The notes beneath the pieces were generated by a model. That model ran no database searches, was not told the origin of the DNA, and saw only the letters and a list, made by a program, of their open reading frames with translations. Shown piece after piece: positions 5,645 through 37,344 of a stretch of 37,344 nt of DNA. Positions within the stretch are counted from its first letter, which is position 1. Each line of letters begins with the position of its first letter. This stretch comes from a virus. The DNA lies in the IMG/VR virus record IMGVR_UViG_3300024355_000334, positions 1 to 37,344 of that record. One strand, 5' to 3'. The position numbers and the translations under genes were made by a program.

Positions 5645-8600
5645 ATGCGTAAACCACCCGTCACTCAAATCAAAAAGCCACGCCGTTTAACATATGCTGA
5701 ACAAGCCGTAGTGAACGACTTGGAGGATTACGGTAAACCGACAGAACAAACGAAAGCATATAAAGAACGTCAAGCTGCTATCCAGCAGTTTAAAACAAAC
5801 TTTTATAATCCAGCTTTAAAAAACCTTAAATCCAATGCATGGCGTAATACTGGCATTAATAGCAATGATGAGTTCACTATTGATGAGGCGTACCGTAACG
5901 GTCTTATTACTGCTAATGAAAGACGTGAATATCATCAACTTGCGTCAGAACGTCTTCTCGAAGCACGGCGTTCTGTATTTAATATCTATGGAACGCCTAA
6001 AAAAGGTAATGAATTAGTATCTGGGCGTAATTTTTATCCTGATCCAAGTAAAGCATCAGACGCAAAAGCAGAACGGTATAAGATTTATAAAAGTGCATTA
6101 GCACGAGAACAAGGCAAGTTGCCAACTGCAATACGAGAAGGCATGGCAACAGTAAGTGCTGGTGCTGGTGCTATTGCTGGTCTTGGTTTAGGTACAGGTC
6201 GCGCACTGCTAAATGTAGGGCGATTTGCTACCGGGTCTCAAACTCTTGATGATCTGTACGAGTCTGGTGAAGCAAGTGAACAAAAATATTTAAAGAGTGT
6301 TGCTGATGGTGCTGACACTAACATGTTCTTAGAAGGCATGTATGGTAGCGCTGCTGGTACAGAAACAACTCTGTTATCTCCATTTACTGTAGGTGGAGAG
6401 CTTGGTCGTAGATCTTTCATTGGTCGTGGATTTGGTTCCATGATGGGTATGACAAAAGATCAGCAGGATCAAGCGTATGCTAACTTAGGTATTGGTGATT
6501 GGTATGCTCAGAAGGTTGGTGACCCAGATAATCTTGTAAGGCAAGCTGCATTTTTATCTGGTCAGGTTTTAGCTGGTTCTATTCCCGGCATGGGTCCAGA
6601 GCTTGTAACGATGCGTTTAGCTGGTACAGCATTTGCAGCAGCAACACGTCCTCTCGTTAAAACAATGTTGCAGTCACAAGTTGCACGTACTGTAGGCAGT
6701 ATGACGCCAATGGCAATTGGCGCCGTTGGTCAAGCTGGTGTTCCCGGTCAAGTTACAAAAGCATTTGGTGGAACGCAAGAGCAAGCGGAATTTGCTAACA
6801 GAGCTACAGAGTTTGCTGGTGCTCCTATTCGTAGCACTATAGAAGCTATTCCATCTGTATATGATACACAAGCGGGTGGTCAAATTGACGCGAACAAGAT
6901 GGCAGCAATGCGTCAGGCTGAAGTTGACCCACAAGGCATATCTGAAACTGCTGCAATGGTGGGAATGTTTGGATCTGGTGCTGCTAGTTTTTACAGTGAC
7001 GCAAAACAGTTGTTTAAGGTTAATCGCCTACTTGCAAAAGCAAATGCAACGCAACATAAAGGTCGTTTTTTAAATGCTGGCGATAGGTTACTAAGAGAGC
7101 GTTCTGAATTAATGGCATCTGTTGGGCCTGATGCTGCATTTGGAATGAACAACATGTTTACTCCTATTGCACAGGCATATCGAGCTGCAACTGATAAATC
7201 TGTAGATGAAACTGGTCAGCCAAAATATCAGCCACCTACTATGTCTGACTTAGGTCGTGCTGCATTATTAACATTTACGGCAGTTAGACCGCATGGAAAG
7301 CTTGGTGCGTTTATGACACCAGCCCTGCGGGGTAAGTTACTAGCTGAAGGTTCGGATATAAAAACGCAAGCCATGTTTATGGCACGTGATTGGGTTGATA
7401 GCGGTGAGTGGCGAGGTCAGGCTATTAACCGCCGTTTCCAATCTATTACGGGTCGCCCAGAAGCGAATCCTGATGATGTTAAAAGAGCAGTAAGTAAGGC
7501 TTACGAATTGATTGGTGAACGCGCCCGTCAAGCTGTTATTAGTGGCGAGGTACTACCAAGTAGTGCTGGTGAAATATTTTTCCAAAAGTTAGTTTCTGGA
7601 AGACTTGATGATCCTACGACGCAACGAGAATTTAATCGCATAATTGCAAACATGCGTGTGAAAGGTGACAATGCACCTTTATCAGATGACAACCCACTAG
7701 CTGGGCAAAAAATAAATACAAATATTTACATTACTGATCCCGCTGCAAGAAATCGTGCTGTTGCAGAATTAGTCCCACAGTTTGAACAGATCTTGTTAAA
7801 GGCAATGGCAGAGCAGTCTGAAACGCCAGCGACAAAACAGGGTAGTGAACAATCACAAGAACCTACAAAAACTACACCTGTTCGTCAAAGTGGGCAGCAA
7901 TTTTTTGGTATACGTATAGCAGACACGCCTGATGGAATACCGCAATATTTAGCATTTAATACACACCGTGGACCAAATGGTCATACATTTAGAGCTGTCG
8001 AACTAGTGCGTGGCGATCAAGATGTGTCTGATTTGATTATGCTTGATCAGCCTACAGTAACTCGTAAAAACGCATTTTTCACGGGCGCTAGTATCCTCCA
8101 AGCATTACAGTCACGCATTGATATATTTAATCCGTATTACCAGAAGAACAAATGGACTGAAGGTGGCCGGACGCGTACTATCGCTGGATTTAATCCAGAC
8201 GGAACAGTGCTAGTTAAAAGCATTACGTCCGACGGCAAAGTTTCTATAGACCGAATGGGAAGTATCGACCTGCTTAAATCGTTGTCTAAATTTAATGCAC
8301 GTCTATACGATATATTAGGCCCAATTTTAAAAACACTAAACACTAATGCTGTTGACGAGACCGCAGAGTTATTAGACTATACGGAAAGCACTGACTTTCC
8401 AGATCGTATTCCTTATACGTCTGATGACGGCAATATTCGTTACGTTAATGGTCGTAAGGTAGCTACTAGTGGTGGTCCTACACCTGTAGGTATTTATCAG
8501 TTGCCTAACGGCACTGTATTAATTCAACCAATGACTGGTGAGCAAGCTCAAACACCTACAAGACCAGTGATGGATACAGGCCAAATTGAAAGATCACCAG

Positions 8601-11600
8601 ACATCTTAAACAGTATTACTATACGAGATGCAAAAGCAGCAGTGGAGTCTCGTAGTGGTTACATGCGCATGGATATACACAATAGTGGAATCCTTTCACG
8701 TGTTCCTGTATCTGCAGATGCATTAGCGCAGATAGAAGAAGTCATTAATACAGAAGACAGTCTTGCAGACAAAGCAGAAACTATTCGTGGGATTGTCGCT
8801 GAAGACGTAGCTATTTCTACTAGTGGTGATCGTCGTGGATTGCGTTATTCCGACGAGGCTGATGACTATGTAAACGATGTAATTGTTAGGGCAGGGGATT
8901 TAGTTCGTGGATCATTTACAAATGAGTCCGACTTGCAAGCTGCTGTTGTAGTTAAATCTGATTCTAATCTTGTAACCGTCCGTCTTTTATCTGATCCTAC
9001 TGGTGATGCGTACACTGTTCCTGTAGATCAAGTTGTTGTAGATGTACAACAGGATTTTGACGCATTATCTACTGCAGCTGACAATTTTGTTCCAACCGAA
9101 GAACGACCATTACATAGGCCTTATCAACGAACAGTGTTAGACGAAGAAGAGTTTAACACTGCTATGACGATACAGAAGTCTGGCAAGCAACGACAACGCT
9201 TATTAAATACGTCTACCGAGGAATTGCCAACGGTATTAATTGATCTCTTGAAAAAAGGAGAAATTTTACCGGGTGATTTAAAACTAGGATTATTGTCATG
9301 GGCAGCTAGTACACAAAATACAGAAGCTGTTATAGATGCTATAGTTGCAGCATTTGACGATGCAGTAAAACCCGGCGTTACTATTTACAACTACTTGACT
9401 CGTGTAGCAAATCTTTATTCGGACTCTAGTTTCTTTGACCAGTTATATTATGTTGATTCATTAAACACTAGTATTAAGACTGGTGCGTTATTGAGTGCAA
9501 CATCAATACGGTCTAAAGCCACAGCTCAGAGTGTGGCTCGTAGGATGAATATACTTGCGTATCGTAGTCAACGTAATCTTTCACCAGATCAACTATACCG
9601 ACAAGCCATTAATTCATTAGGGGTTGAAGATAACAAGCAGACAAGAGCTGATGCTATTTCCTACGCAAAATTAATGCGCGGTATAGCATCTCATGCTGCA
9701 TTTCACATTGACAATATTTGGCAAATGCGAGCACTATCTGGGACAAATGCTCAAACCCAAGTGTTCCTTGGTCGCGCTATAGCTGCTGTTAGTAGCCCGG
9801 ATTTCGCTGATCAGTTAACCAGACAAGATTTTACTCCAGCACAAGCTTCTGCTTTAATTAGATTCTGGAAGTCAGAACGAAGTTATGCGACTGCCATCAG
9901 ATTAGTCAATGAAATGGTTAAGAATGATAGCAGTGGCGGTGAAACTGTACGAGAACTATTGAGTTCCGTTGGGTTAGAATTTTTATATTATGCATCGGCT
10001 ACTCCAAAGATAAAAAATTTGGCAGACCAACTTATGGATGCCAACTCGTATCGTCGATACCAACAAGAAATGAATGCGTATATCGCTAACCAAGCTATAC
10101 CTACCATCATTTTAAAATCAATTGAAAACGACATCGTTAACGGTGATTTTATGGGGTGGACTGACGAGACGTCCGCTCATCAAACAAATCGAGTTTCATT
10201 TATTCAGACTCTAGCACTGCTTGGTACTGAGATTGCTAATCGTGTAGCAACATCTCCTGCACTTGACGAGAATTCTAAAACTAGTCTATTGACTATATTG
10301 TCCGATTTACGCAATCAAATTAATGACATGGATCCTGCAACTTTAGCTAGGATTGGGTCATATACGCCTTCACCCATTAGTGGCAACCGAGAGTTTTCAT
10401 TAACAAGTGATGGAACTGCTACAAATTTAGCATACATAGATTCACAACAGTCACTTGATCGTGCAGTGCAAGTGATATTAGATCAGGCCTTATCGGAAAC
10501 CGAAGCTAAGACAATTATCGAAGAAGGTAAGGATGATCAGGGACGACAGCAAGCCGATGTGTTAGCTGTTGCACGTAGAAGTGTTTATGAGCAACTAAAG
10601 AACAACACTCATGCTGTTGCTTTTGCCATGGCACTTGCACATTTTGATGTTAAAGATATCTCTTCTCTCAATCGGATTTTAAAAGTATTTGAAGATCAAT
10701 TTGATGTAACAGGTTTAAAACGAGCATACGATCGTGCTGTCGAAGCAAAAGATTCGGATTTAATTCAAGCGACTAAGATGGCATTGGAGACGGCTCGCGT
10801 AAATGCATTTAACAAAGCATTTAAAAGCTTTGACAAAGTATTGGAAGTAGCAAAACAAATTGATGCTTTGTATTCCGATTTACTTGATGACACATTTACA
10901 TCTCTTGTAGATGAATTAGGTAATGCATATGAATATATGCGTTCATTTTATACAAGTGAAAACTCAGCAAATGAAGTACTGATTAGCACTGGTGATGTTG
11001 CTGCTAGTAGTCAGGCATATGGCAATCGACTTATTGCTGATACATCAGGTGATTCCGAGACAGCAGATACAACTAGTACTGTACGTTCATCGTTAGATGA
11101 TCAGAAAACCAAGGATATTTATCTTGCTAATGTTGCACGTGAAGAGCAAGCTGAACTAGCAAAAGCTCAGGCTGATAACGAATCACCAGAATTTATTGCT
11201 GACATTAGATACAAGTATGACACGATACGCAAAGAATTCATGGATTCGCAAGCGCAGAAAACTGAATCTAATGAAGATGGTAAAGATGATTTTATTAAAG
11301 CCTTAAACGCATTCAATACGTATACCTCCGAGCAGTTACCGGCATTTCTAGCAATAGACAATGGCGAAAATATGGCGGATAAAGTTGCGTTACTAATGAC
11401 AATGTCTGGTGAGTTAATGACATTGCTTACTAAAGATAACCTATTAAGCAATAACTTCTTACCAGCAGTGACACACAAAACAACTACAAGTATTGCTCGT
11501 CAGTACGATCGCACACGTGGGATTAACGAGGACCTAGCAGCCATGAGACGTGCTAGTGCTCCTATAGAGGTGATCGAAAATCCAGTAACTGGTGAGATAA

Positions 11601-14600
11601 CTATAGCTGGATTAACTCAGTCTGTTATTGCTGGTAGGAGACCCGTATCGCCACGCAGTACGCGCATTGACTCAATGAATCCAGATGCACCAGATAATTC
11701 TGTCGTAATTACGGAACAGGATTTAATGTTATCTAGAGATGATGCTGATGAGGATTTAGTTGATTTTCTAAGTAGTGATGCCCTTGTAGAAATTACTGAA
11801 TTAGTTGGGACTACAGTTAACGAAGAAGCCTTTGATGGAATGGCTACATCGGAAACACCAACTGAAAAGATTAGATTATATGCATTACATGCTCGTAACT
11901 ATTCTGGTATGCAAGCGATGCTTGAAGGGTTACTGTTAAAACAATTTGATTTTAGGACAACATTAGATCATTTATCAGCAATGGGTGATGCCGAAAACTC
12001 ACAGCGACGCATTGCCCGTGCAGGTGCTGCTGCACCAGAACGTATCGGTAAATTATCAGAACAAAACTTTGACAATCCAGATATTGCAAGAGCAGCGCAG
12101 AATAATTGGAAAGTACGCGTAGCTGATGTACTTAAAAAACAACTCAGAAACATTGAGCGGAATGAACGGTTTAGACTTCAACGTGTAATAGATTCACTTG
12201 ATGTTTTATTTAACCCAGAGATGCAAGTAGCGGATCAAACCGTAGAGACGTTTGTAACCGAAGCGAGTATATACCTGAAGGGTCAACTAAAAAATGTTAA
12301 CCTTCCAGATGATGTATTCACGGAATTATCTGCTGCATTTTCTGTTAATGGGATGTTGAGATTATTTTCTCAGCCAGATTATTCGGGTGCTTATTACAGT
12401 CACAGAGCAGGTTATGTTGACACACCATATGAGATTGCCACAGCGATTGGTGCATTGGAAGGCGATGACGTCTCTTATTTACACAGAGATGTATTACCAA
12501 CCATTTATTCACAACCAGCTGATATCAACTCCATAACACCTGCAACAGCAGAATACTTAGTCAGCTTGTATGACAAGTTGGACATGTCTGTTTATTCACA
12601 AGCAGATAGAGATGAAATTATAAAAACAAAACGCTTGTACGAAGAGCGGATGACAAATTCATCAGCCACTGTTGACATGCAGGTTGACCTTGGTTTTATG
12701 CGTACTGCTAAAGACTTATCTATAGGCTTAGCTAAGCTGTATGACAATTTTGCTTTTGGTTATGCACAAAAACAGTACGCAATGCTATTAACATCTGACA
12801 GACCAGAACACCGTGCTGAAATTGTAGATGCAATGCGGAAAGTAGGTGTATCTCCAGAGATTGTCGATGTATTTAAAGGTAGTGCTGGATCATTTGCAGC
12901 AATCTTAGATGCACTAGCGGAAAATATGGGTGTTATTCGGTCTGATGTTCGTCGTCAATTATTGACTGATGAGCAAAAGAATGCATTGCAAACCTATCTT
13001 ATTGCTAAATATCGCATGAATTACTACATGCATAGTGGCAAGATGTTAATGACATCTTCTGAGTTGATGCGTTCTACTAGTGCACAAATGGTGACCGCGA
13101 AAGATGGTCGCCAAATACATGGTGCGTTTTTGGCTGCTCAGAGATTAATGATGATTGCATCCGAGGCTAATGGGCCACGTACTGCGGATACTCTCTATCA
13201 CGAAATGACTCATGCTTTGTTCACAGCATTGGACGACATGACTCAGGTTAACTTTTTAAGTTCGTTATTACCATCTATAGAAGATATTTCGGATCCTAAA
13301 CTGAAAGACAATCCTCTGTTTCCAGCAATATTACAGATGCGAGCCATAGAGATATTTAATAAGGCATATCCGGAATCTGTAAATGAACCATTATCTACAA
13401 AGTGGCGCAGTGATGAGGTAGTGCAGTTCTGGCAAGAACAAGGCATGAGTGAAGATCGCATCAAGATGATGCAACGCGATTGGTTTGGATCTGCACATGA
13501 AATGTTTGCAGTGGCTTTACAAAATTTTATTGCTGATTTTGGCGAACCAATTTCTGACAATCCATCACGTGCGGTGGACACAGATGCTGCAGCAATTTTC
13601 CAACAGGTAGCTGCTCCTATTAGGAGTATGTGGACACTGCTTGCTAGGAGTAGTCCTGCAGATATGATTTTGGAAAATGGAAAGCCACATAAAGCATGGT
13701 CTGCACCAATTCCTACAGCTCAATACATGACTGGCAACAAACGTGTTATTGAATATCCAGCCGTTCGTCAAGGTGATTACGTACGGTTGTATGTGCCTAA
13801 TAAAGGCCGTCTAGATACTGATGCACATAACATCTTTAATGTATCTGACCTATTAAAGATGTGGATGTCAACTGGTCAAACAGACTCTGTGCATCACAAG
13901 TTTGGTTTTAAGGTTCAATATACAATAGCGGGTCCAAACGGCGAGCCTATTAATCGTCAGGTTAATGTGCCATTTGATAACAAGAATGCTTTGGCATATA
14001 TACATCAGTTAGTTAATGCAGGTGGCGATGTAGACTTTTTTGTAATACCAGCCGGAAGCGACAAGCTTACAGATCTAACGGAAAGTCAAAACTGGTCGCA
14101 ACCGTACAATGGTCGCATTGTTGACAAAGTAGTTCTCCGTAACAAGGGAGATTATCAACGTCAAACAGTTTTTGCTTACACTATCGGCGGAAAGCAATTT
14201 GATTTTGTTAGTCTTAGGGACAACGATGGCGTACTGCCTGATGGATTTTTCAGCACTCGTTTTGCTGTAACTGACGATGCTGCTGATGCCGGACCAAAAG
14301 ATCCACGGTATACAACTGTTCCAAATACTGATTCTTATTTTGTAATTGAAGCTCCAGTTACTGTTGCAATACGTGACAAAAATAAACGCGGTTCAAGCAG
14401 GCGCTTTGAGGGCACTGCTAGATATCTAGTTTCATCTCGTGATTTGATGGATTCAACCTACAATCCCCAGTTATTAGGTTATTCTGGAGATTTTAATCCT
14501 AAATTTTCAGCTACGCTGTATGACCTAAATAGTAAGTTAGATACGATCACTAGGTCTATATCCGACTATCATTCCTATCAAGATCAACTTACCCTTGAGA

Positions 14601-17600
14601 AGAAATTGTTTACTGGCACTGCAAATGATTTCCGAACTAACACTCGTGATATGTTTACGCCAGCCCAACGGATTGCTGCTTATCATGGAGACCAAGGTAA
14701 AGATGTGCGAGCTGCTGGTGTTGACATGTATGCACCAATTGTTGCTGGTCGTAATACATTTGAAGCCAATGTACTAGAGATAATGCGTAGCCGGGGTTTA
14801 ATGAATCCGGAAGGTGGATATACAGAAGAAGGTTATGCTTTTCTTGAACGTTTAAATACGTTTGGAGTTACACCACTAGCTCAATTTATGCAACGCGAAG
14901 GCATATTCCGGCATGCACTAAAAGATTCTCGTCATGGTGTATACAACAATAATGTATTCACAATTGACTATGGCAGTGCGGAATACAACGCGTTATCTAA
15001 CTTCTCTAAATCCCTTGAAGGCAGTTTGCGACAAAAAGCGCTGGCAGCAGGTGTTCCATTTTCGGAGCTAGATACGTTTATTGTTGATGGGCAAAATGAA
15101 TTCTTTAATCAGTTGTACTCAGCAATGTTTGTACGCCCAGTCAATAGAGCTGCTGTAAAAGAAGGGCGGCGTCCGGTCGAAGATAGAGTGCAGGATGTTA
15201 TAGATGCATTCAATGAGGGGCTTCCAGAAGAACAACAGTTATCGTTAAACTACATTGATGGGACAACAGCTGGTAGTGTGTTACCTATTTTTGAATACGT
15301 ACTTAATTCCAGCCAGATAGGTGGATCTGATGCATTTTCTGGAATACGTATCATCAATGATTTACTAACGGCTCTTGCCACTAACCAGCCTATCGAACTA
15401 GAAGGACGCCCACATCATGTAAACGGTGCTGGTTATGTTCTCAACAGGACAATGGATGTTATTTTTGGAAGAGATAACTTTGTAGGAAAGACTGAGTTCC
15501 TTGATCGTTTAACAAGTTTAAATGAAAATGAACGCGCTAAAGCAATAAGGCTTGTAACTAGTACAGCAAGTATCCTTGATTTACAAGAACGCGTTATCGC
15601 TAATGCTAGATATAACTGGCAGAAGTATAGTCTTCCAACAGGTGCATTTGTTGACAATGGAAAGGTCAGGATTGTTGATGATTCTGGACGGATGCTGCAA
15701 GTCAACTTACGTACGAACGAGGTAGTAAATATTGCTCCAGACTATCTGCGTTCTGGAAAAGTAATTAAGGCTGATATTCACAGTAACAGATATCCTTTGT
15801 ATAACCCTGAAGCTCCAGTGCGTTATGCAAGTGTAGGTGATCCGCTAGATGTTCGCGTTGCAGAAACCATTTTAAATTCTTTAAGTAAGATGGAGGCCGA
15901 GCAATTAGCCATTGATCCTAAAGGTATCGTTATTTTGCGCGAGCGTGATTACAGTTCTACTAGTAGTGATGTAGGTATACACCTCTACCGCCTCAGTAAA
16001 AACACAAACAAAGATTTCCTTGAGACTGGCCTACGTTACAAGGTTTACCAAGTAAATAATCCATACAAGGGTTTCTACCATGTACATGGTGATGACGGAA
16101 CTCTTACTGAGGTTAACAACCAGCGCATCCTTACTCAAAGCCCTGCGTTTTTAATGGGTGTGGCAATGAATCAATATTTTGATACAGCCAACCCAGAAAA
16201 CTATGAGTCTTTAGAACGTATACGAAAGACTTCTATCATTCGTCCTGAAGTGTTTATTGCGAAGATGTTAATTGCTCGCGCTCAAAGAACAAATCCTGAG
16301 ACTGTAAGTTCTGCATGGCGCAAAGATATGTCTAAGCAATTTAAGGTCAACAATGTAACCATTGGAAGTGGCGATCAATCTTACTCAATGCTTCAGTCAG
16401 CCATTGTAAATAATAGGCGTGAAGGAACATGGATGTCTAGTGGTGACATGCCAAGTGAACATTCTAAACCATTTAGCGAATTGGAAATGAGTTTAGTTCG
16501 TGGCCTTGGGGAATTACCAGTAGAGGCAGTTGGCAATGAAGATGTCAAAAGAGAGTGGCAATTGCAACGTCTTGAAGACATTGAAAAGCGCATCAGTGTT
16601 AATAGGCAACCAGAAAACATCATCATTCAAAAGCATAATGATGTTGACCAAGTTGGCGTGTCAGTTGATGGCGATGACGTGTACTTTACTATCCCTGAGA
16701 ATCAATACGATGATGTTATCTCAGCCATGTTTAGTTCTAGTCCAGCTGAAATTGACCAACTAAAAAATTTACCTAACGGACAAGGTGCAACTTTACCGAC
16801 TAATAGTTTGCCACCTGACTATCCTGTATGGCGTGCTATTGCAGATGTTTGGACAGAAGGTTCCGGATGGGAAGTTGTAAAACGACTTAGCCGTGACTTT
16901 GCTCGTCCGTTTATTCAGAATTATGCATTAGTTTCTATGCGACCAAAAGATATGGCTATGCAGATGTATGGCTTATTAGGCATGGCTCCTAACATTTGGT
17001 TCCCACATGGAAGTAATGGTAAAGGGACACTATTCCAAAAACTATTTGCTCATCAGAAAGATACTGCTTACGGCGACATCATGTATCACAGAATTATTGA
17101 TGGCATTTTCCGTAAATATGGTCGCATTGGAAGTCAGTTTAGTATTGGCGCAATACCATTTACAAAAAAAGCAACAGTACCCGGAATATACGACAAAGAA
17201 CTTGGCCGTAGTCGCAGTTATACCATTGAAGATTTAAACGAGTTTGGTTTATCGACATCATATGGAGAATGGTATGCGACAGCAGCTGCTATTAAAGCGG
17301 CTAACCCGTTAATTGAATTGAAAGATGTCCCTATTCAGTTAACTGGTGCTGAAAATTTAGGAGGAGGAGTATTAGGTCAACGACTAATTCCATTTGTTGG
17401 TATGACTGAGCGTGGTGGGTTACTGTCAACTGACTTATTGCGAATAAAACAGTTTTTAGAATTAGCTAGAATTGTCGATCGCAAAGTTTTTGAAAGTTTA
17501 GGAAGAAGCGATTCGTTAGTTACTATGGAGCAAAATAAACTTAAGCGAAATTTTGCTCGTATTATTAACACTATTTCTGGCTCACCAGTTGGTGATGACG

Positions 17601-18937
17601 TGTTATTACATCCAGTCGCACGGGAGGTTCAATACAAAGCCCAAGCCATATTTACCGCACCTAACTGGGGTAAGTCACTTAAGATGTTTACTCTATTACC
17701 TATGGTGCCAGAGTTGACAGCTGGTTATTTAGTGAATATGGCGTTTAGGCCAGTATGGCGTAAGTTCTTTAAAGGTGTTGGTTACAACACAGTTAATCTA
17801 GGTGCATACCATAATTTCTTATCGGCTATTGGTCAAGTAAAAACGGCTGATGGAAATATTATTAACACACCATTTAGTTATTATTTGACTCGTTTTACAG
17901 GAACCGCTATTAATACGGCTTTACTTTTTGGTGCTGCTTTGTTTATGCAAAACATCGCACAAAGCCGTGCTTTACTAGCAGCTCAAGGAAAGCAGACACA
18001 CTGGTATCAGATAGCAAAAATTAAACATTTAATGGATGAACAGAAACTAGGAGTTACCCAACCACCAGCTGGTACAGCAAAGGTTGTGACATTAGGAAAT
18101 ATGGAGGTGCAGGCTCCACCTATTATTATGGGATGGAATAGGTTTTTACTACAGCCATATTTGCAAATGCAACGCAACATGAAGGCTGGTGAATCATTAC
18201 CAGCTGCTGCAGCAGAGGCTATGTTTAGCACAGAATTTACATCTCGTGTTAACCCAATGTACGTTGCAATGAAAGATCAACTTACAGGTAAAACCAACAT
18301 ATTTAACTCTGCAACATATCAAGAGCATCCCGGATGGAGATATTTTCTTGCGCATTATGATGAGCTTATTGCGCAATCTGGACCATTCGGTTATCAACTG
18401 GCGTTACTCAAACTTGCATATCCAAATGGAATGAGTCGTGCAGCAATGAATGGTCAAATGGTGCCAATTCAAAAAATGATGAATGATCTTGAGCGTATGC
18501 AATATGTTGATAACGCTGATTATAATCATTCGTTGGCTAACTGGATGCGTTTCATTGGATTGGAAAATGAGTATTACAACTACGATTTAGATGTCAAAAT
18601 TCCAAATATGTCAAAAGGTGGAATTAGATATGGCGATATAACTCGTCTTCAAAAACAGTTTGAATATGATTATCCGGGAATATTTCAAACCATTAGTGAA
18701 TTTGGGTTAGGTGCATTGTGGAGTGGAATACCGGGAACTGGAGATATAAGTGGTAAGGGCTTTGAAAGAAAACAACCTGTGCCATATCCGTTGATGCCAA
18801 CACAAAAACTTATTGAGTCATCAACTCGTCGTCCAGATAGATTGAAGAGCGAAGTTATAGAGCAACAAGCAAGACAGACTTTACCAGCGGTTAGTTGGGA
18901 ACAGTTACAGCGAGCATCTGAGAGAGGTTCTAGATAA
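5645..18937 (+). CDS. Giant virion protein with zinc metallopeptidase motif
   Basis: A single uninterrupted frame of 4430 residues, 36% of the window. The N-terminal 450 residues contain several Gly/Ala-rich hydrophobic stretches (for example residues 170-195) that could insert into membranes. Residues 2519-2523 are HEMTH in the context LYHEMTHALF, the zincin signature. SAHEMFAVAL, with Glu2619 about 100 residues later, could supply the third zinc ligand. Near the C-terminus, IFTAPNWGKSLKMF and a hydrophobic segment (INTALLFGAALFMQNIA) recall the C-terminal parts of large phage polyvalent proteins. The order after the nozzle-like and two smaller proteins matches T7 gp16, though gp16 carries a transglycosylase rather than a protease. 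Inference: it is packaged and injected, and cleaves host envelope or host defence proteins, or itself. T7-like or N4-like RNA polymerase motifs were looked for and not seen. Confidence 0.6.
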   Translation: MRKPPVTQIKKPRRLTYAEQAVVNDLEDYGKPTEQTKAYKERQAAIQQFKTNFYNPALKNLKSNAWRNTGINSNDEFTIDEAYRNGLITANERREYHQLASERLLEARRSVFNIYGTPKKGNELVSGRNFYPDPSKASDAKAERYKIYKSALAREQGKLPTAIREGMATVSAGAGAIAGLGLGTGRALLNVGRFATGSQTLDDLYESGEASEQKYLKSVADGADTNMFLEGMYGSAAGTETTLLSPFTVGGELGRRSFIGRGFGSMMGMTKDQQDQAYANLGIGDWYAQKVGDPDNLVRQAAFLSGQVLAGSIPGMGPELVTMRLAGTAFAAATRPLVKTMLQSQVARTVGSMTPMAIGAVGQAGVPGQVTKAFGGTQEQAEFANRATEFAGAPIRSTIEAIPSVYDTQAGGQIDANKMAAMRQAEVDPQGISETAAMVGMFGSGAASFYSDAKQLFKVNRLLAKANATQHKGRFLNAGDRLLRERSELMASVGPDAAFGMNNMFTPIAQAYRAATDKSVDETGQPKYQPPTMSDLGRAALLTFTAVRPHGKLGAFMTPALRGKLLAEGSDIKTQAMFMARDWVDSGEWRGQAINRRFQSITGRPEANPDDVKRAVSKAYELIGERARQAVISGEVLPSSAGEIFFQKLVSGRLDDPTTQREFNRIIANMRVKGDNAPLSDDNPLAGQKINTNIYITDPAARNRAVAELVPQFEQILLKAMAEQSETPATKQGSEQSQEPTKTTPVRQSGQQFFGIRIADTPDGIPQYLAFNTHRGPNGHTFRAVELVRGDQDVSDLIMLDQPTVTRKNAFFTGASILQALQSRIDIFNPYYQKNKWTEGGRTRTIAGFNPDGTVLVKSITSDGKVSIDRMGSIDLLKSLSKFNARLYDILGPILKTLNTNAVDETAELLDYTESTDFPDRIPYTSDDGNIRYVNGRKVATSGGPTPVGIYQLPNGTVLIQPMTGEQAQTPTRPVMDTGQIERSPDILNSITIRDAKAAVESRSGYMRMDIHNSGILSRVPVSADALAQIEEVINTEDSLADKAETIRGIVAEDVAISTSGDRRGLRYSDEADDYVNDVIVRAGDLVRGSFTNESDLQAAVVVKSDSNLVTVRLLSDPTGDAYTVPVDQVVVDVQQDFDALSTAADNFVPTEERPLHRPYQRTVLDEEEFNTAMTIQKSGKQRQRLLNTSTEELPTVLIDLLKKGEILPGDLKLGLLSWAASTQNTEAVIDAIVAAFDDAVKPGVTIYNYLTRVANLYSDSSFFDQLYYVDSLNTSIKTGALLSATSIRSKATAQSVARRMNILAYRSQRNLSPDQLYRQAINSLGVEDNKQTRADAISYAKLMRGIASHAAFHIDNIWQMRALSGTNAQTQVFLGRAIAAVSSPDFADQLTRQDFTPAQASALIRFWKSERSYATAIRLVNEMVKNDSSGGETVRELLSSVGLEFLYYASATPKIKNLADQLMDANSYRRYQQEMNAYIANQAIPTIILKSIENDIVNGDFMGWTDETSAHQTNRVSFIQTLALLGTEIANRVATSPALDENSKTSLLTILSDLRNQINDMDPATLARIGSYTPSPISGNREFSLTSDGTATNLAYIDSQQSLDRAVQVILDQALSETEAKTIIEEGKDDQGRQQADVLAVARRSVYEQLKNNTHAVAFAMALAHFDVKDISSLNRILKVFEDQFDVTGLKRAYDRAVEAKDSDLIQATKMALETARVNAFNKAFKSFDKVLEVAKQIDALYSDLLDDTFTSLVDELGNAYEYMRSFYTSENSANEVLISTGDVAASSQAYGNRLIADTSGDSETADTTSTVRSSLDDQKTKDIYLANVAREEQAELAKAQADNESPEFIADIRYKYDTIRKEFMDSQAQKTESNEDGKDDFIKALNAFNTYTSEQLPAFLAIDNGENMADKVALLMTMSGELMTLLTKDNLLSNNFLPAVTHKTTTSIARQYDRTRGINEDLAAMRRASAPIEVIENPVTGEITIAGLTQSVIAGRRPVSPRSTRIDSMNPDAPDNSVVITEQDLMLSRDDADEDLVDFLSSDALVEITELVGTTVNEEAFDGMATSETPTEKIRLYALHARNYSGMQAMLEGLLLKQFDFRTTLDHLSAMGDAENSQRRIARAGAAAPERIGKLSEQNFDNPDIARAAQNNWKVRVADVLKKQLRNIERNERFRLQRVIDSLDVLFNPEMQVADQTVETFVTEASIYLKGQLKNVNLPDDVFTELSAAFSVNGMLRLFSQPDYSGAYYSHRAGYVDTPYEIATAIGALEGDDVSYLHRDVLPTIYSQPADINSITPATAEYLVSLYDKLDMSVYSQADRDEIIKTKRLYEERMTNSSATVDMQVDLGFMRTAKDLSIGLAKLYDNFAFGYAQKQYAMLLTSDRPEHRAEIVDAMRKVGVSPEIVDVFKGSAGSFAAILDALAENMGVIRSDVRRQLLTDEQKNALQTYLIAKYRMNYYMHSGKMLMTSSELMRSTSAQMVTAKDGRQIHGAFLAAQRLMMIASEANGPRTADTLYHEMTHALFTALDDMTQVNFLSSLLPSIEDISDPKLKDNPLFPAILQMRAIEIFNKAYPESVNEPLSTKWRSDEVVQFWQEQGMSEDRIKMMQRDWFGSAHEMFAVALQNFIADFGEPISDNPSRAVDTDAAAIFQQVAAPIRSMWTLLARSSPADMILENGKPHKAWSAPIPTAQYMTGNKRVIEYPAVRQGDYVRLYVPNKGRLDTDAHNIFNVSDLLKMWMSTGQTDSVHHKFGFKVQYTIAGPNGEPINRQVNVPFDNKNALAYIHQLVNAGGDVDFFVIPAGSDKLTDLTESQNWSQPYNGRIVDKVVLRNKGDYQRQTVFAYTIGGKQFDFVSLRDNDGVLPDGFFSTRFAVTDDAADAGPKDPRYTTVPNTDSYFVIEAPVTVAIRDKNKRGSSRRFEGTARYLVSSRDLMDSTYNPQLLGYSGDFNPKFSATLYDLNSKLDTITRSISDYHSYQDQLTLEKKLFTGTANDFRTNTRDMFTPAQRIAAYHGDQGKDVRAAGVDMYAPIVAGRNTFEANVLEIMRSRGLMNPEGGYTEEGYAFLERLNTFGVTPLAQFMQREGIFRHALKDSRHGVYNNNVFTIDYGSAEYNALSNFSKSLEGSLRQKALAAGVPFSELDTFIVDGQNEFFNQLYSAMFVRPVNRAAVKEGRRPVEDRVQDVIDAFNEGLPEEQQLSLNYIDGTTAGSVLPIFEYVLNSSQIGGSDAFSGIRIINDLLTALATNQPIELEGRPHHVNGAGYVLNRTMDVIFGRDNFVGKTEFLDRLTSLNENERAKAIRLVTSTASILDLQERVIANARYNWQKYSLPTGAFVDNGKVRIVDDSGRMLQVNLRTNEVVNIAPDYLRSGKVIKADIHSNRYPLYNPEAPVRYASVGDPLDVRVAETILNSLSKMEAEQLAIDPKGIVILRERDYSSTSSDVGIHLYRLSKNTNKDFLETGLRYKVYQVNNPYKGFYHVHGDDGTLTEVNNQRILTQSPAFLMGVAMNQYFDTANPENYESLERIRKTSIIRPEVFIAKMLIARAQRTNPETVSSAWRKDMSKQFKVNNVTIGSGDQSYSMLQSAIVNNRREGTWMSSGDMPSEHSKPFSELEMSLVRGLGELPVEAVGNEDVKREWQLQRLEDIEKRISVNRQPENIIIQKHNDVDQVGVSVDGDDVYFTIPENQYDDVISAMFSSSPAEIDQLKNLPNGQGATLPTNSLPPDYPVWRAIADVWTEGSGWEVVKRLSRDFARPFIQNYALVSMRPKDMAMQMYGLLGMAPNIWFPHGSNGKGTLFQKLFAHQKDTAYGDIMYHRIIDGIFRKYGRIGSQFSIGAIPFTKKATVPGIYDKELGRSRSYTIEDLNEFGLSTSYGEWYATAAAIKAANPLIELKDVPIQLTGAENLGGGVLGQRLIPFVGMTERGGLLSTDLLRIKQFLELARIVDRKVFESLGRSDSLVTMEQNKLKRNFARIINTISGSPVGDDVLLHPVAREVQYKAQAIFTAPNWGKSLKMFTLLPMVPELTAGYLVNMAFRPVWRKFFKGVGYNTVNLGAYHNFLSAIGQVKTADGNIINTPFSYYLTRFTGTAINTALLFGAALFMQNIAQSRALLAAQGKQTHWYQIAKIKHLMDEQKLGVTQPPAGTAKVVTLGNMEVQAPPIIMGWNRFLLQPYLQMQRNMKAGESLPAAAAEAMFSTEFTSRVNPMYVAMKDQLTGKTNIFNSATYQEHPGWRYFLAHYDELIAQSGPFGYQLALLKLAYPNGMSRAAMNGQMVPIQKMMNDLERMQYVDNADYNHSLANWMRFIGLENEYYNYDLDVKIPNMSKGGIRYGDITRLQKQFEYDYPGIFQTISEFGLGALWSGIPGTGDISGKGFERKQPVPYPLMPTQKLIESSTRRPDRLKSEVIEQQARQTLPAVSWEQLQRASERGSR

Positions 18938-18939
18938 TC

Positions 18940-19722
18940 ATGGTAGAGCAGTTTATTAAAATTGCACAAAAGTATATTGGTGTGACCGAGCAGCCAATAG
19001 GCAGTAACTGTGGCCCTTTAATTGATCGTTGGAACACATTAGTAAATGCACCCATTGCAAGTTATTGGTGCGCATCGTTTGTTAGTGGAGTTGCTTCTGA
19101 ATGGGAAAGTAAGAGTGGACTTGATTGGCCGTTATGCTTTAGTGCAGACTGCGATGTCTGGTTAGCTGTTGCTAAAAAGCATGGCGTTCTTCATCGAGCG
19201 CCAATGGCAGGAGACCTTGTATTGCTTGTGAAGACCTCGAGAAATGGAAGGCAAGATGCGTTTCATATTGGTATTGTTGAAGGTCAAGATGAAAATGGGA
19301 TTTGGTATTCCATTGAAGGGAACAGTAATAACGACGGAAGCCGTAACGGATATGAGGTAGCTCATCGACCTCTATACAGAAACAGAAGTAAAGATGCACT
19401 GTATTTTGTTCGACCGTGGTCATTGTTACAAAGTGGACAAGATTGGAAGATTGTATATGGTGACAAACACATTATTGCGTTTGTGCAAAACGGTAGAACC
19501 TACGCGCCTGTCAGGGATTTTGTTCGGCTTGTCGTTGGGGATGATTCTTTATTGGCTTGGGAAGATGGGCCAGTCCTCAACGGTGAAGCACTGGCCGTTC
19601 AATGTATTCTACGAGATGGCAAATCGTATGCACCTGTCAGAGATATTGCCCGTAGTCTTGATTTTGATTGCGTCGTCAATAATGACCACAAGAAAGTCTA
19701 CTTAAAGAAACAAGTCGTCTGA
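18940..19722 (+). CDS. CHAP-type endolysin with copper-amine-oxidase-N-like repeats
   Basis: 260 residues. Residues 1-160 form a CHAP/NlpC-P60-like cysteine peptidase or amidase domain. Cys44 in YWCASFVS, His109 in FHIGIVEG and Asn129 in EGNSN fit the Cys-His-polar catalytic set. Residues 170-258 hold two repeats (NGRTYAPVRDFVR and DGKSYAPVRDIARSL) of the copper amine oxidase N-terminal 'stalk' type, found in many secreted bacterial envelope proteins, and are likely the cell-wall binding part. There is no signal peptide, so a holin or another exporter is needed; none was identified next to it. The gene starts two bases after the giant gene's stop. Its 3' end overlaps the convergent helicase gene by 21 bases. 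Confidence 0.75.
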   Translation: MVEQFIKIAQKYIGVTEQPIGSNCGPLIDRWNTLVNAPIASYWCASFVSGVASEWESKSGLDWPLCFSADCDVWLAVAKKHGVLHRAPMAGDLVLLVKTSRNGRQDAFHIGIVEGQDENGIWYSIEGNSNNDGSRNGYEVAHRPLYRNRSKDALYFVRPWSLLQSGQDWKIVYGDKHIIAFVQNGRTYAPVRDFVRLVVGDDSLLAWEDGPVLNGEALAVQCILRDGKSYAPVRDIARSLDFDCVVNNDHKKVYLKKQVV

Positions 19723-34980: not shown

Positions 34981-35016
34981 AAAAAAAGCGCCCCGCCCAG
35001 ATTGACTGGGCAGGGC
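34981..35016 (-). terminator. Intrinsic terminator after the Csx16 cassette
   Basis: On the minus strand an 11-bp stem (GCCCTGCCCAG with CTGGGCGGGGC, one G-U pair, loop of 5) is followed by GCTTTTTTT. It lies 23 bases after the stop of the 73-residue gene and just before the next ribosome-binding site. The G-U pair becomes a C-A mismatch on the plus strand, so it is oriented leftward. Confidence 0.85.
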
Positions 35017-35039
35017 ACACGCCTCATTTCCTCAGCGTG

Positions 35040-35261
35040 TTAGCGTGTTCGGCGGAACCGACGCAGGATAGCGTCGTCGTTTGAGCGAACCCAAACGCCA
35101 CGCGCATCATCCAGCGCCGTATTCGCCGACATCGACACAGCACAGCCTGTCATGGCTTGCACCGTGTCAATGGTGTCATCGATGAGTTGCTGGTCGTCAT
35201 CCAGCCGACTGACGTCTGAACGCCAGTCACTATACCAACGAGAACGGTGTTTTAGTCCCAT
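35040..35261 (-). CDS. Uncharacterised 73-residue protein next to csx16
   Basis: Start at the ATG at 35261 (MGLKHRSRWYSDWR), with GGAGGAGGAG upstream and a 10-base overlap with the csx16-like gene. Basic N-terminus, acidic middle (SRLDDDQQLIDDTIDTV) and Arg-rich C-terminus. Unrecognised; as part of the same cassette, it is a guilt-by-association anti-defence candidate. Confidence 0.5.
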   Translation of the reverse strand: MGLKHRSRWYSDWRSDVSRLDDDQQLIDDTIDTVQAMTGCAVSMSANTALDDARGVWVRSNDDAILRRFRRTR

Positions 35262-35635
35262 TCTTTCTCCTCCTCCAGTTTCTGCTGGACCCACGCAAGG
35301 TTGTCATCCAGAGCCTTGATCTCTTCCCGAATAGCCACCCAATCTTCCATTGGGAGGACTTTGTAACTGACGATGGACGCATTGAGCGTGTCCATATCGT
35401 CAGCAGTCAATTCCTTACCACGCTTGTCAGCGGGTAAGTTGGGGATGTCGATACTGTGGACTTCCTTTGCCAGAGCGGCAAGGTGCAACGGCAATACGCC
35501 GTACACGACTTGCCCAGTTACATCTTCAGGAGTGGCGTGGTCAATCACGCTTACCTCATTAGCGTCATTAGGGATGATCTCGTGGCGAATCAGCCACTCA
35601 ACTGCCCCAAGATGCCGAGTAACAACTACAATCAT
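35252..35635 (-). CDS. csx16: Csx16-family protein (VVA1548 type), candidate anti-CRISPR ring nuclease
   Basis: 127 residues. Three blocks match the CRISPR-associated Csx16/VVA1548 family as I know it: VTRHLGAVEW (5-14), GVLPLHLAA (46-54) and KRGKELTADDM (71-81). The family is about 100 residues and normally lies beside type III CRISPR genes; it has recently been linked to breakdown of cyclic oligoadenylate second messengers (from memory, not checked). This copy has an extra charged helical tail (residues 98-127). There are no cas genes or repeats here and the context is phage early genes, so a role in blunting host type III immunity is the best inference, not shown. AAGGAGGTG is upstream; the ATGA overlap couples it to the preceding gene. 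Confidence 0.75.
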   Translation of the reverse strand: MIVVVTRHLGAVEWLIRHEIIPNDANEVSVIDHATPEDVTGQVVYGVLPLHLAALAKEVHSIDIPNLPADKRGKELTADDMDTLNASIVSYKVLPMEDWVAIREEIKALDDNLAWVQQKLEEEKEWD

Positions 35636-35946
35636 TTACACACCTCCTTGCCCAACTGGGCGTCCAAAGCAAACATGAACCGACGAGCACGATTGGCTTC
35701 AGCCAAATCAATGGCAACCAACCGCAGGAGAAGGTCGCGGTCATTCTTGTACCGCTTGACCCAATTGATTACTTCCGATGCAGTCAACGCACCCATGATG
35801 GTTGCATCAACAATACACCCCTCAGGCGTAATGTATGCAATCTCGAATAGTCCTTGTCGGTTACCAATCGTCATGCGATTACGAACGATAGAGATACACC
35901 CACTGAACCCGTTGTTTAGTTGAATCTCTGCTTTAAACTCTCTCAT
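35632..35946 (-). CDS. Uncharacterised 104-residue protein next to csx16
   Basis: Start at the ATG at 35946 (MREFKAEIQLNNGF), with GGAGTT upstream. The 45 codons before it cross the terminator hairpin and are rejected. The first half is beta-rich (GCISIVRNRMTIGNRQGLFE), the second helical and basic (TASEVINWVKRYKNDRDLLL). Unrecognised. First gene of the three-gene cassette that includes the Csx16-like protein. Confidence 0.5.
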   Translation of the reverse strand: MREFKAEIQLNNGFSGCISIVRNRMTIGNRQGLFEIAYITPEGCIVDATIMGALTASEVINWVKRYKNDRDLLLRLVAIDLAEANRARRFMFALDAQLGKEVCK

Positions 35947-35967: not shown

Positions 35968-36000
35968 AAAAAAACCACCCGGTAACTTGTACCGGGTGGT
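35968..36000 (-). terminator. Intrinsic terminator before the Csx16 cassette
   Basis: Perfect 11-bp stem (ACCACCCGGTA with TACCGGGTGGT, loop of 5) running straight into seven T on the minus strand. It lies 7 bases after the stop of the 125-residue gene and 22 bases before the next ATG, so there is little room for a new promoter between it and the cassette. Confidence 0.9.
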
Positions 36001-36007
36001 CTGCCCG

Positions 36008-36688: not shown

Positions 36689-36714
36689 ATTAGGATCCAT
36701 ACAATTGTGGTACC

Positions 36715-36729
36715 ATATGTTATACATAT
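36715..36729. promoter_or_regulatory. AT-rich inverted repeat before the rightward genes
   Basis: ATATGT, TAT, ACATAT, a perfect 6-3-6 repeat ending three bases before GAGGTG. It could overlap a promoter -10 region or be a further operator. Confidence 0.35.
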
Positions 36730-36742
36730 ATTGAGGTGTGCT

Positions 36743-37003
36743 ATGTTTTTATTGACGCAGGGTAATGACAGTGAGGTAACGGTACAGCAGAGTGCTAAGC
36801 ACGGGTATTCAGTTACTGTGAAACGCAAGAATGACGGCAACGTGCCTGAGTACCAGACTGGGCTGTCGCTGGTGGAAGCTGCGCAGTACTGTGCTAATTT
36901 GCGTAACGACGGAGTCAAAATTCCAGCTCGTTTTGTGATTGACTTCTTGATGATGGCACTGGACAGCATTGTGACTACGTTTGATTCTGAGGCAGCGGAG
37001 TAG
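36743..37003 (+). CDS. Uncharacterised 86-residue protein
   Basis: Start at the ATG at 36743 (MFLLTQGNDSEVTV), with GAGGTG six bases upstream; the in-frame GTG at 36707 lies in the control region. A beta-rich N-terminal half (VTVQQSAKHGYSVTVKRKN) is followed by helices (LVEAAQYCANLR, ARFVIDFLMMAL). Unrecognised. Its stop overlaps the dUTPase start (TAGTG), so the two are co-translated and this may be an early nucleotide-metabolism or regulatory gene. Confidence 0.55.
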   Translation: MFLLTQGNDSEVTVQQSAKHGYSVTVKRKNDGNVPEYQTGLSLVEAAQYCANLRNDGVKIPARFVIDFLMMALDSIVTTFDSEAAE

Positions 37004-37344
37004 TGGATAGCCTTGAAATTATTTATTGCGGTGCTCGGTCTTGCGAGTATCTATTTAATCCACAACGCGCTACAGAAAAAGCGTCAGGAATAGACCTGCA
37101 GTATATAGCTGAGCGTAATGTCACTATTAGACCGGGGCAGATCATGTTGATTCCAACTGGTATGAAGATCAAGTTGGAGGATGGTTATGAGGCTCAGGTT
37201 CGTACTCGCAGCGGTATGGCTTACAAACACGGGATCGTTGTGCTTAACAGCCCCGGTACAGTGGATGCTGATTACACAGGTGAGGTAAAGGTCATCATCA
37301 AAAATATGAGTGATGAGACGTTTACGTTTGTGCCCGGTATGCGT
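37003..37344 (+). CDS. dut: dUTPase (3' partial)
   Basis: GTG start overlapping the preceding stop; 114 codons are visible and the frame is still open at the window end. Motif 1 is ATEKASGIDLQY, motif 2 is RTRSGMAYKHGI, motif 3 is LNSPGTVDADYTGEVKV and the last visible residues FVPGMR begin motif 4. These are the trimeric dUTPase signatures; the Tyr or Phe usually before D-L is Ile here. The enzyme hydrolyses dUTP to dUMP and keeps uracil out of phage DNA. The C-terminal glycine-rich motif 5 would lie outside the window. Confidence 0.9.
   Translation, partial: MDSLEIIYCGARSCEYLFNPQRATEKASGIDLQYIAERNVTIRPGQIMLIPTGMKIKLEDGYEAQVRTRSGMAYKHGIVVLNSPGTVDADYTGEVKVIIKNMSDETFTFVPGMR

Follow-up and report, generated by a model that had tools for sequence, protein, structure and literature searches.

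Analysis of the window, the whole 37,344-base stretch of an IMG/VR record of an uncultivated bacterial virus, revealed on its minus strand (35252-35635) a gene for a Csx16-like protein (PF09652) of 127 residues, which we take, with a probability of about 0.7, to be a ring nuclease from the Csx16 family in its wide sense that serves the virus as a type III anti-CRISPR. Few viral means of defeating type III CRISPR are known, and ring nucleases are among them. A preliminary description of this DNA, which delimited the reading frame exactly, had read the protein in the same way, and ring cleavage against type III immunity still appears the most economical function, given the homology to Csx16 and the absence of cas genes. 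We infer the activity, dimerisation, substrate and expression timing of the window protein, as well as its counter-defence role. The occurrence of cas-free Csx16 in 29 further IMG/VR contigs, mostly in a short form, is new; as far as the literature shows, there is no published description of this breadth of viral carriage or of the short form.

The gene opens with an ATG and encodes a short-form protein with a core of residues 2-93, followed by a long C-terminal helix (96-126). Directly upstream of the ATG, the sequence contains a Shine-Dalgarno region (AAGGAGG; 35636-35652, minus strand), and the start codon itself overlaps, as ATGA, the TGA stop of an upstream small gene (35632-35946, minus strand; start MREFKAEI at 35946), which shares the transcription unit. 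This small gene gave no family match and is absent from the corresponding place in the sister virus described below. On the other side, a downstream small ORF (35040-35294, minus strand) encodes 84 residues from a GTG; its probable ATG start at 35261 overlaps the 3' end of the Csx16 gene, where GGAGGAGGAG in the tail codons would probably serve as its ribosome site, and a homologue of this ORF also lies 3' of Csx16 in the sister virus. Intrinsic terminator-like hairpins on the minus strand are found ahead of the three-gene unit (35972-36002) and after the downstream ORF (34988-35018, with a 13-bp stem and a T run). The Shine-Dalgarno region, the ATGA overlap and the orthologue at the same place in the syntenic sister virus mark the Csx16 ORF as a real gene.

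The protein matches Pfam PF09652 (Cas_VVA1548, the Csx16 family in the wide sense) with 66.3 bits and an E-value of 2.8e-18 over residues 4-93 and profile positions 2-90 of 91, passing the gathering score of 25 bits across the whole domain. Three Csx16 models of PADLOC also match with 44-65 bits, as do two models for fusions of Csx16 with CARF-HEPN or CARF-TM effectors (CARF-HEPN-Csx16 and CARF-Csx16-TM). At the level of profile comparison, the PF09652 and PADLOC matches are far beyond chance. The match to the NCBIfam model TIGR02620 (Csx16) is weaker (35.2 bits, E 1.1e-8) and stays below the curated cut-off of 46.35 bits, so that the protein is not filed as a strict Csx16 and represents a divergent branch, not a plain Csx16. 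On the same scale, CRISPR-locus controls score 94-106 and the other short forms 25-58, only the copy of contig L002 exceeding the cut-off. TIGR02620 is further meant for proteins encoded within or next to type III CRISPR loci, and the window has neither a Cas10 palm domain nor an array. The assignment to the Csx16 family made in the preliminary description thus holds for PF09652 and not for the strict model. PHROGs offered no convincing family for the protein.

All three motifs on which that assignment had been based are present, as VTRHLGAVEW (residues 5-14), GVLPLHLAA (46-54) and RGKEL (72-76), and the overall pattern [S/T]RH...H...GxLP...RGxEL is shared with type III-locus Csx16 (PF09652/TIGR02620, VVA1548) along with full-length homology. 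Eight residues, R7, H8, H33, G46, L48, P49, R72 and G73, are conserved across 17 CRISPR-type and 36 viral or plasmid sequences, each being found in 31 to 36 of the latter 36, and the window protein keeps all of these residues of the presumed cOA-binding face. Unlike type III-locus Csx16, the window protein is four residues shorter after GxLPxxLAAxA, has no GD before strand 3 and no YxHL in the fourth strand, lies away from any cas genes and scores below the TIGR02620 cut-off. The equivalents of Tyr59 and His61 (YxHL) of CRISPR-locus Csx16 are replaced in most short forms, and specificity or rate may therefore differ from those of the cellular enzyme.

The AlphaFold2 model of the window protein (pLDDT 96) is a five-stranded alpha/beta structure and has the same topology as the model of a CRISPR-locus Csx16, a five-stranded sheet with flanking helices of the derived Rossmann, CARF-like type, in agreement with the description of Csx16 in the passages of PMC12409355 on which we draw. 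Comparison of predicted structures, proposed earlier as a check, is thus favorable at the level of topology. In Foldseek searches of the window model against viral models and the PDB, no match reached E<=0.001, nor did the CRISPR-locus control find a significant match in the PDB, so that the fold evidence stays at the topology level; the weak, non-significant matches, which included CARF deaminases for the window protein and Crn1-type ring nucleases for the control, do not count as evidence here.

The surroundings of the gene are those of a phage, with a DnaB helicase, a replication initiation protein, a Mu-Gam-like protein, a CHAP endolysin and a dUTPase. The gene had been placed among phage early genes; replication and lysis genes confirm the phage setting, while "early" would be a matter of inference. 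Neither Cas10 nor a CRISPR-like array or array-like repeat was found in the window, in line with the earlier statement that cas genes and repeats are absent. A protein of the AcrIII kind is expected to be encoded by a virus or another mobile element, and the phage replication and lysis genes of this IMG/VR record agree with that. A profile search of the window found no terminase, and the record is therefore probably a fragment. Over one third of it is taken up by a single 4,430-residue ORF (5645-18937, plus strand) with no significant Pfam match. The adjacent CHAP endolysin (18940-19722, plus strand) carries a C-terminal copper amine oxidase N1-like domain, which we take as a hint of a Bacillota host; relatives of the endolysin, of DnaB and of a 297-residue protein gave no settled host assignment.

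A sister contig (L044, IMGVR_UViG_3300043443_000284) is syntenic with the window, matching its 27-37 kb part gene by gene. It encodes at the same place a Csx16 of 109 residues with 62% identity to the window protein, and the divergent neighbors of the window gene, a 98-residue ORF and the dUTPase (36707-37344, plus strand), are likewise syntenic, with 85% and 77% identity. Between the two Csx16 genes dN is 0.32, and dS is saturated and not computable. The retention of the gene in the sister virus despite saturated synonymous divergence is consistent with purifying selection.

Scans of IMG/VR recovered 29 further contigs with a PF09652-type gene and no cas genes. The 23 contigs checked with the Pfam model were all above its cut-off, and tblastn together with a home-made profile yielded the remaining six. 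Cas10 was found in none of the 35 virus and plasmid records searched, and a terminase large subunit was present in 13 of 30 IMG/VR records. A full-length Csx16 was seen in 14 bacterial genomes, 13 of which came up, anew or again, in a scan of 695 genomes from two phyla. In eight of the 14, Cas10 is encoded no more than 11 kb away on the contig that bears Csx16; the remaining copies are on short contigs. Beyond the sister virus, the Csx16-bearing records have almost no neighbors in common and nothing that is widely shared, which indicates that viral Csx16 recurs in unrelated backgrounds. In a collection of 50,697 phage records, Csx16 occurs only in the Methanobacterium viruses Drs3 and PhiF3, where it is annotated as a putative CRISPR-associated protein. 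These are stand-alone viral homologues without Cas10, as in the window, but they belong to archaeal viruses, are of the long form and share 27-36% identity with the window protein; the Drs3 copy, with 45.3 bits, also falls narrowly below the TIGR02620 cut-off.

Several other arrangements were seen. The Allomeiothermus silvanus plasmid pMESIL02, in which no Cas10 was found, has two Csx16 genes: one for a 672-residue protein whose N-terminal part is a short-form Csx16 and which has a second copy of degenerate appearance (L008:6001-8016), and one, adjoining a type IV secretion gene, for a 262-residue tandem short-form protein whose second copy has lost the RH and RG motifs (L080:8303-9088). Cas10-free short forms are also present on the uncultured archaeon plasmid P-10H_0 (L007:7992-8288; 57% identity to the viral L002 copy) and on Deinococcus proteolyticus pDEIPR02 (L009:5992-6276). 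One viral Csx16 forms the N-terminal domain of a 328-residue protein with a cysteine-bearing tail that has no Pfam match (L023:7998-8984), and a pentapeptide-repeat-like protein lies less than 1 kb from the viral Csx16 in L014, L045 and L046, two of these three contigs being near-identical.

The short form is defined by a deletion of four residues right after GxLPxxLAAxA, observed in 24 of 29 distinct IMG/VR records (window included) and in three plasmids. In an alignment of 49 sequences, comprising 31 from viruses (with Drs3 and PhiF3), three from plasmids and 15 cellular or CRISPR-plasmid copies, 24 of the 31 virus sequences have the deletion (that of the window and those of 23 more IMG/VR records), and both cultured methanogen viruses, Drs3 and PhiF3, lack it. 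None of the 17 cellular or CRISPR-plasmid copies carries it (the 15 aligned and two CRISPR-plasmid copies checked later), a statement about CRISPR loci that covers these 17 sequences, with cellular sampling from Pseudomonadota, Nitrospirota and a few plasmids. The short form is thus virus/plasmid-enriched. In the AlphaFold2 models, the helix after GxLPxxLAA has four residues in the window protein (50-53) compared to nine in a CRISPR-locus Csx16 (47-55). The charged tail of about 30 residues, which the preliminary description had put forward as a possible feature of the viral form, turned out to be peculiar to the window virus: it is a single predicted helix (96-126) that the 109-residue sister protein and most of the viral set do not have, and the tails of other viral copies, where present, are unrelated to it. 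As far as the alignment goes, the internal deletion and not the tail is the real viral hallmark.

In a tree built without the deletion columns, a branch with support of 99/97 sets apart the cellular copies, accompanied by just three viral ones (L019, L020 and L022). Two changes between short and long form are needed on this tree. The AU test does not reject a single origin for the short form (p 0.40), nor does it reject a single clade of all virus and plasmid copies (p 0.27) or one uniting all the cellular copies (p 0.25).

The activity itself has a precedent, in the passages of PMC12409355 on which we draw. Hoikkala et al. 2025 purified a Csx16 that showed cA4 ring-nuclease activity by HPLC, with cA6 activity not seen, so that the function treated as a proposal in the preliminary description is now established for cA4. 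According to the same passages, conserved residues of Csx16 cluster where AMP was modelled, and the family was met in 68 type III loci and, among 28,114 phage genomes, in two that the passages leave unnamed. Since both cA4 activity and phage carriage are already published, the core idea is not new and the present finding is less surprising. By analogy, the host Cas10 would sense viral RNA and make cyclic tetra-adenylate, which the viral protein, presumably a dimer with a CARF-like alpha/beta fold, would bind in a pocket formed by the conserved [S/T]RH loop, His33, the GxLP loop and Arg72-Gly73. Cutting the ring to linear products would leave the host effectors inactive. The eight conserved residues may both bind and cleave the ring.

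The features that set the short form apart may be read in other ways. As a phosphodiesterase, the virus/plasmid form could have moved from cA4 to another messenger, such as cA3, cA5, cA6, SAM-AMP or a CBASS cyclic nucleotide; the separate branch, the diagnostic deletion and the changed strand-4 residues would fit such a move, and Crn4 shows that broad ring nucleases are possible (PMC12830947). However, the sole Csx16 tested is strictly cA4-specific in the passages of PMC12409355 cited above, and we consider this move unlikely. The loss of the Tyr/His pair of CRISPR-locus copies and the shortening of the adjacent helix would also suit a sponge, a protein that binds cA4 or another cyclic nucleotide with cleavage lost or slowed and so sequesters the signal, and Csx15 provides the precedent of a strong cA4 binder with slow ring-nuclease activity (PMC13148439). 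The retention of the [S/T]RH, H33 and RG residues in nearly all copies makes this rather improbable, as does the argument that the messenger output of type III systems is too high for sponging to be worthwhile (PMC13148439).

The fragmentary state of the window, without a terminase by profile search, would allow for a remnant of a host CRISPR locus taken up by the virus, or for a misbinned chromosomal fragment, in either case functionless in the virus. Against this stand an intact gene with a ribosome site, the syntenic orthologue in a second viral contig, the lack of Cas10 in every virus and plasmid record searched, the terminases of other records and a branch separate from CRISPR-locus copies, and we regard it as very improbable. 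An ankyrin-like protein is hardly credible: the likeness to an ankyrin repeat lies in the segment DVTGQVVYGVLPLHLAA, and phmmer and profile searches match designed ankyrin proteins with E-values down to 9e-10 over about 28 residues, but these matches are confined to the PLHLAA segment. The whole-length PF09652 match and a model with a five-stranded alpha/beta sheet instead of helix pairs identify the likeness as a short-motif coincidence and rule out this identity.

As a viral ring nuclease, the window protein would work like AcrIII-1 (viral Crn2), a small viral enzyme that degrades cA4 and blocks type III immunity; AcrIII-1 belongs to another family, and its reported structural similarity to Csx16 is weak (DALI 4.8 for Csx16 against 2J6B), both according to the passages of PMC12409355. 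Crn4b and AcrIII-2 (a viral SAVED ring nuclease) are likewise phage-carried ring nucleases, of protein families other than Csx16, the Crn4 fold being unrelated (PMC12830947). The cas-free short form suggests that viruses use it to silence bacterial immunity. More tentatively, the short form could be a separate family of enzymes, akin to Csx16 and adapted to viruses, whose kinetics or messenger specificity has changed. Many uncultivated viruses and some plasmids would then carry it as a counter-defence gene of general use, directed at type III CRISPR or at other immunity based on cyclic nucleotides. If the ring-nuclease reading is true, Csx16 would be another genuine virus-borne ring nuclease beside AcrIII-1, and the viral short forms would offer natural variants for finding the residues that set cA4 cleavage and specificity.
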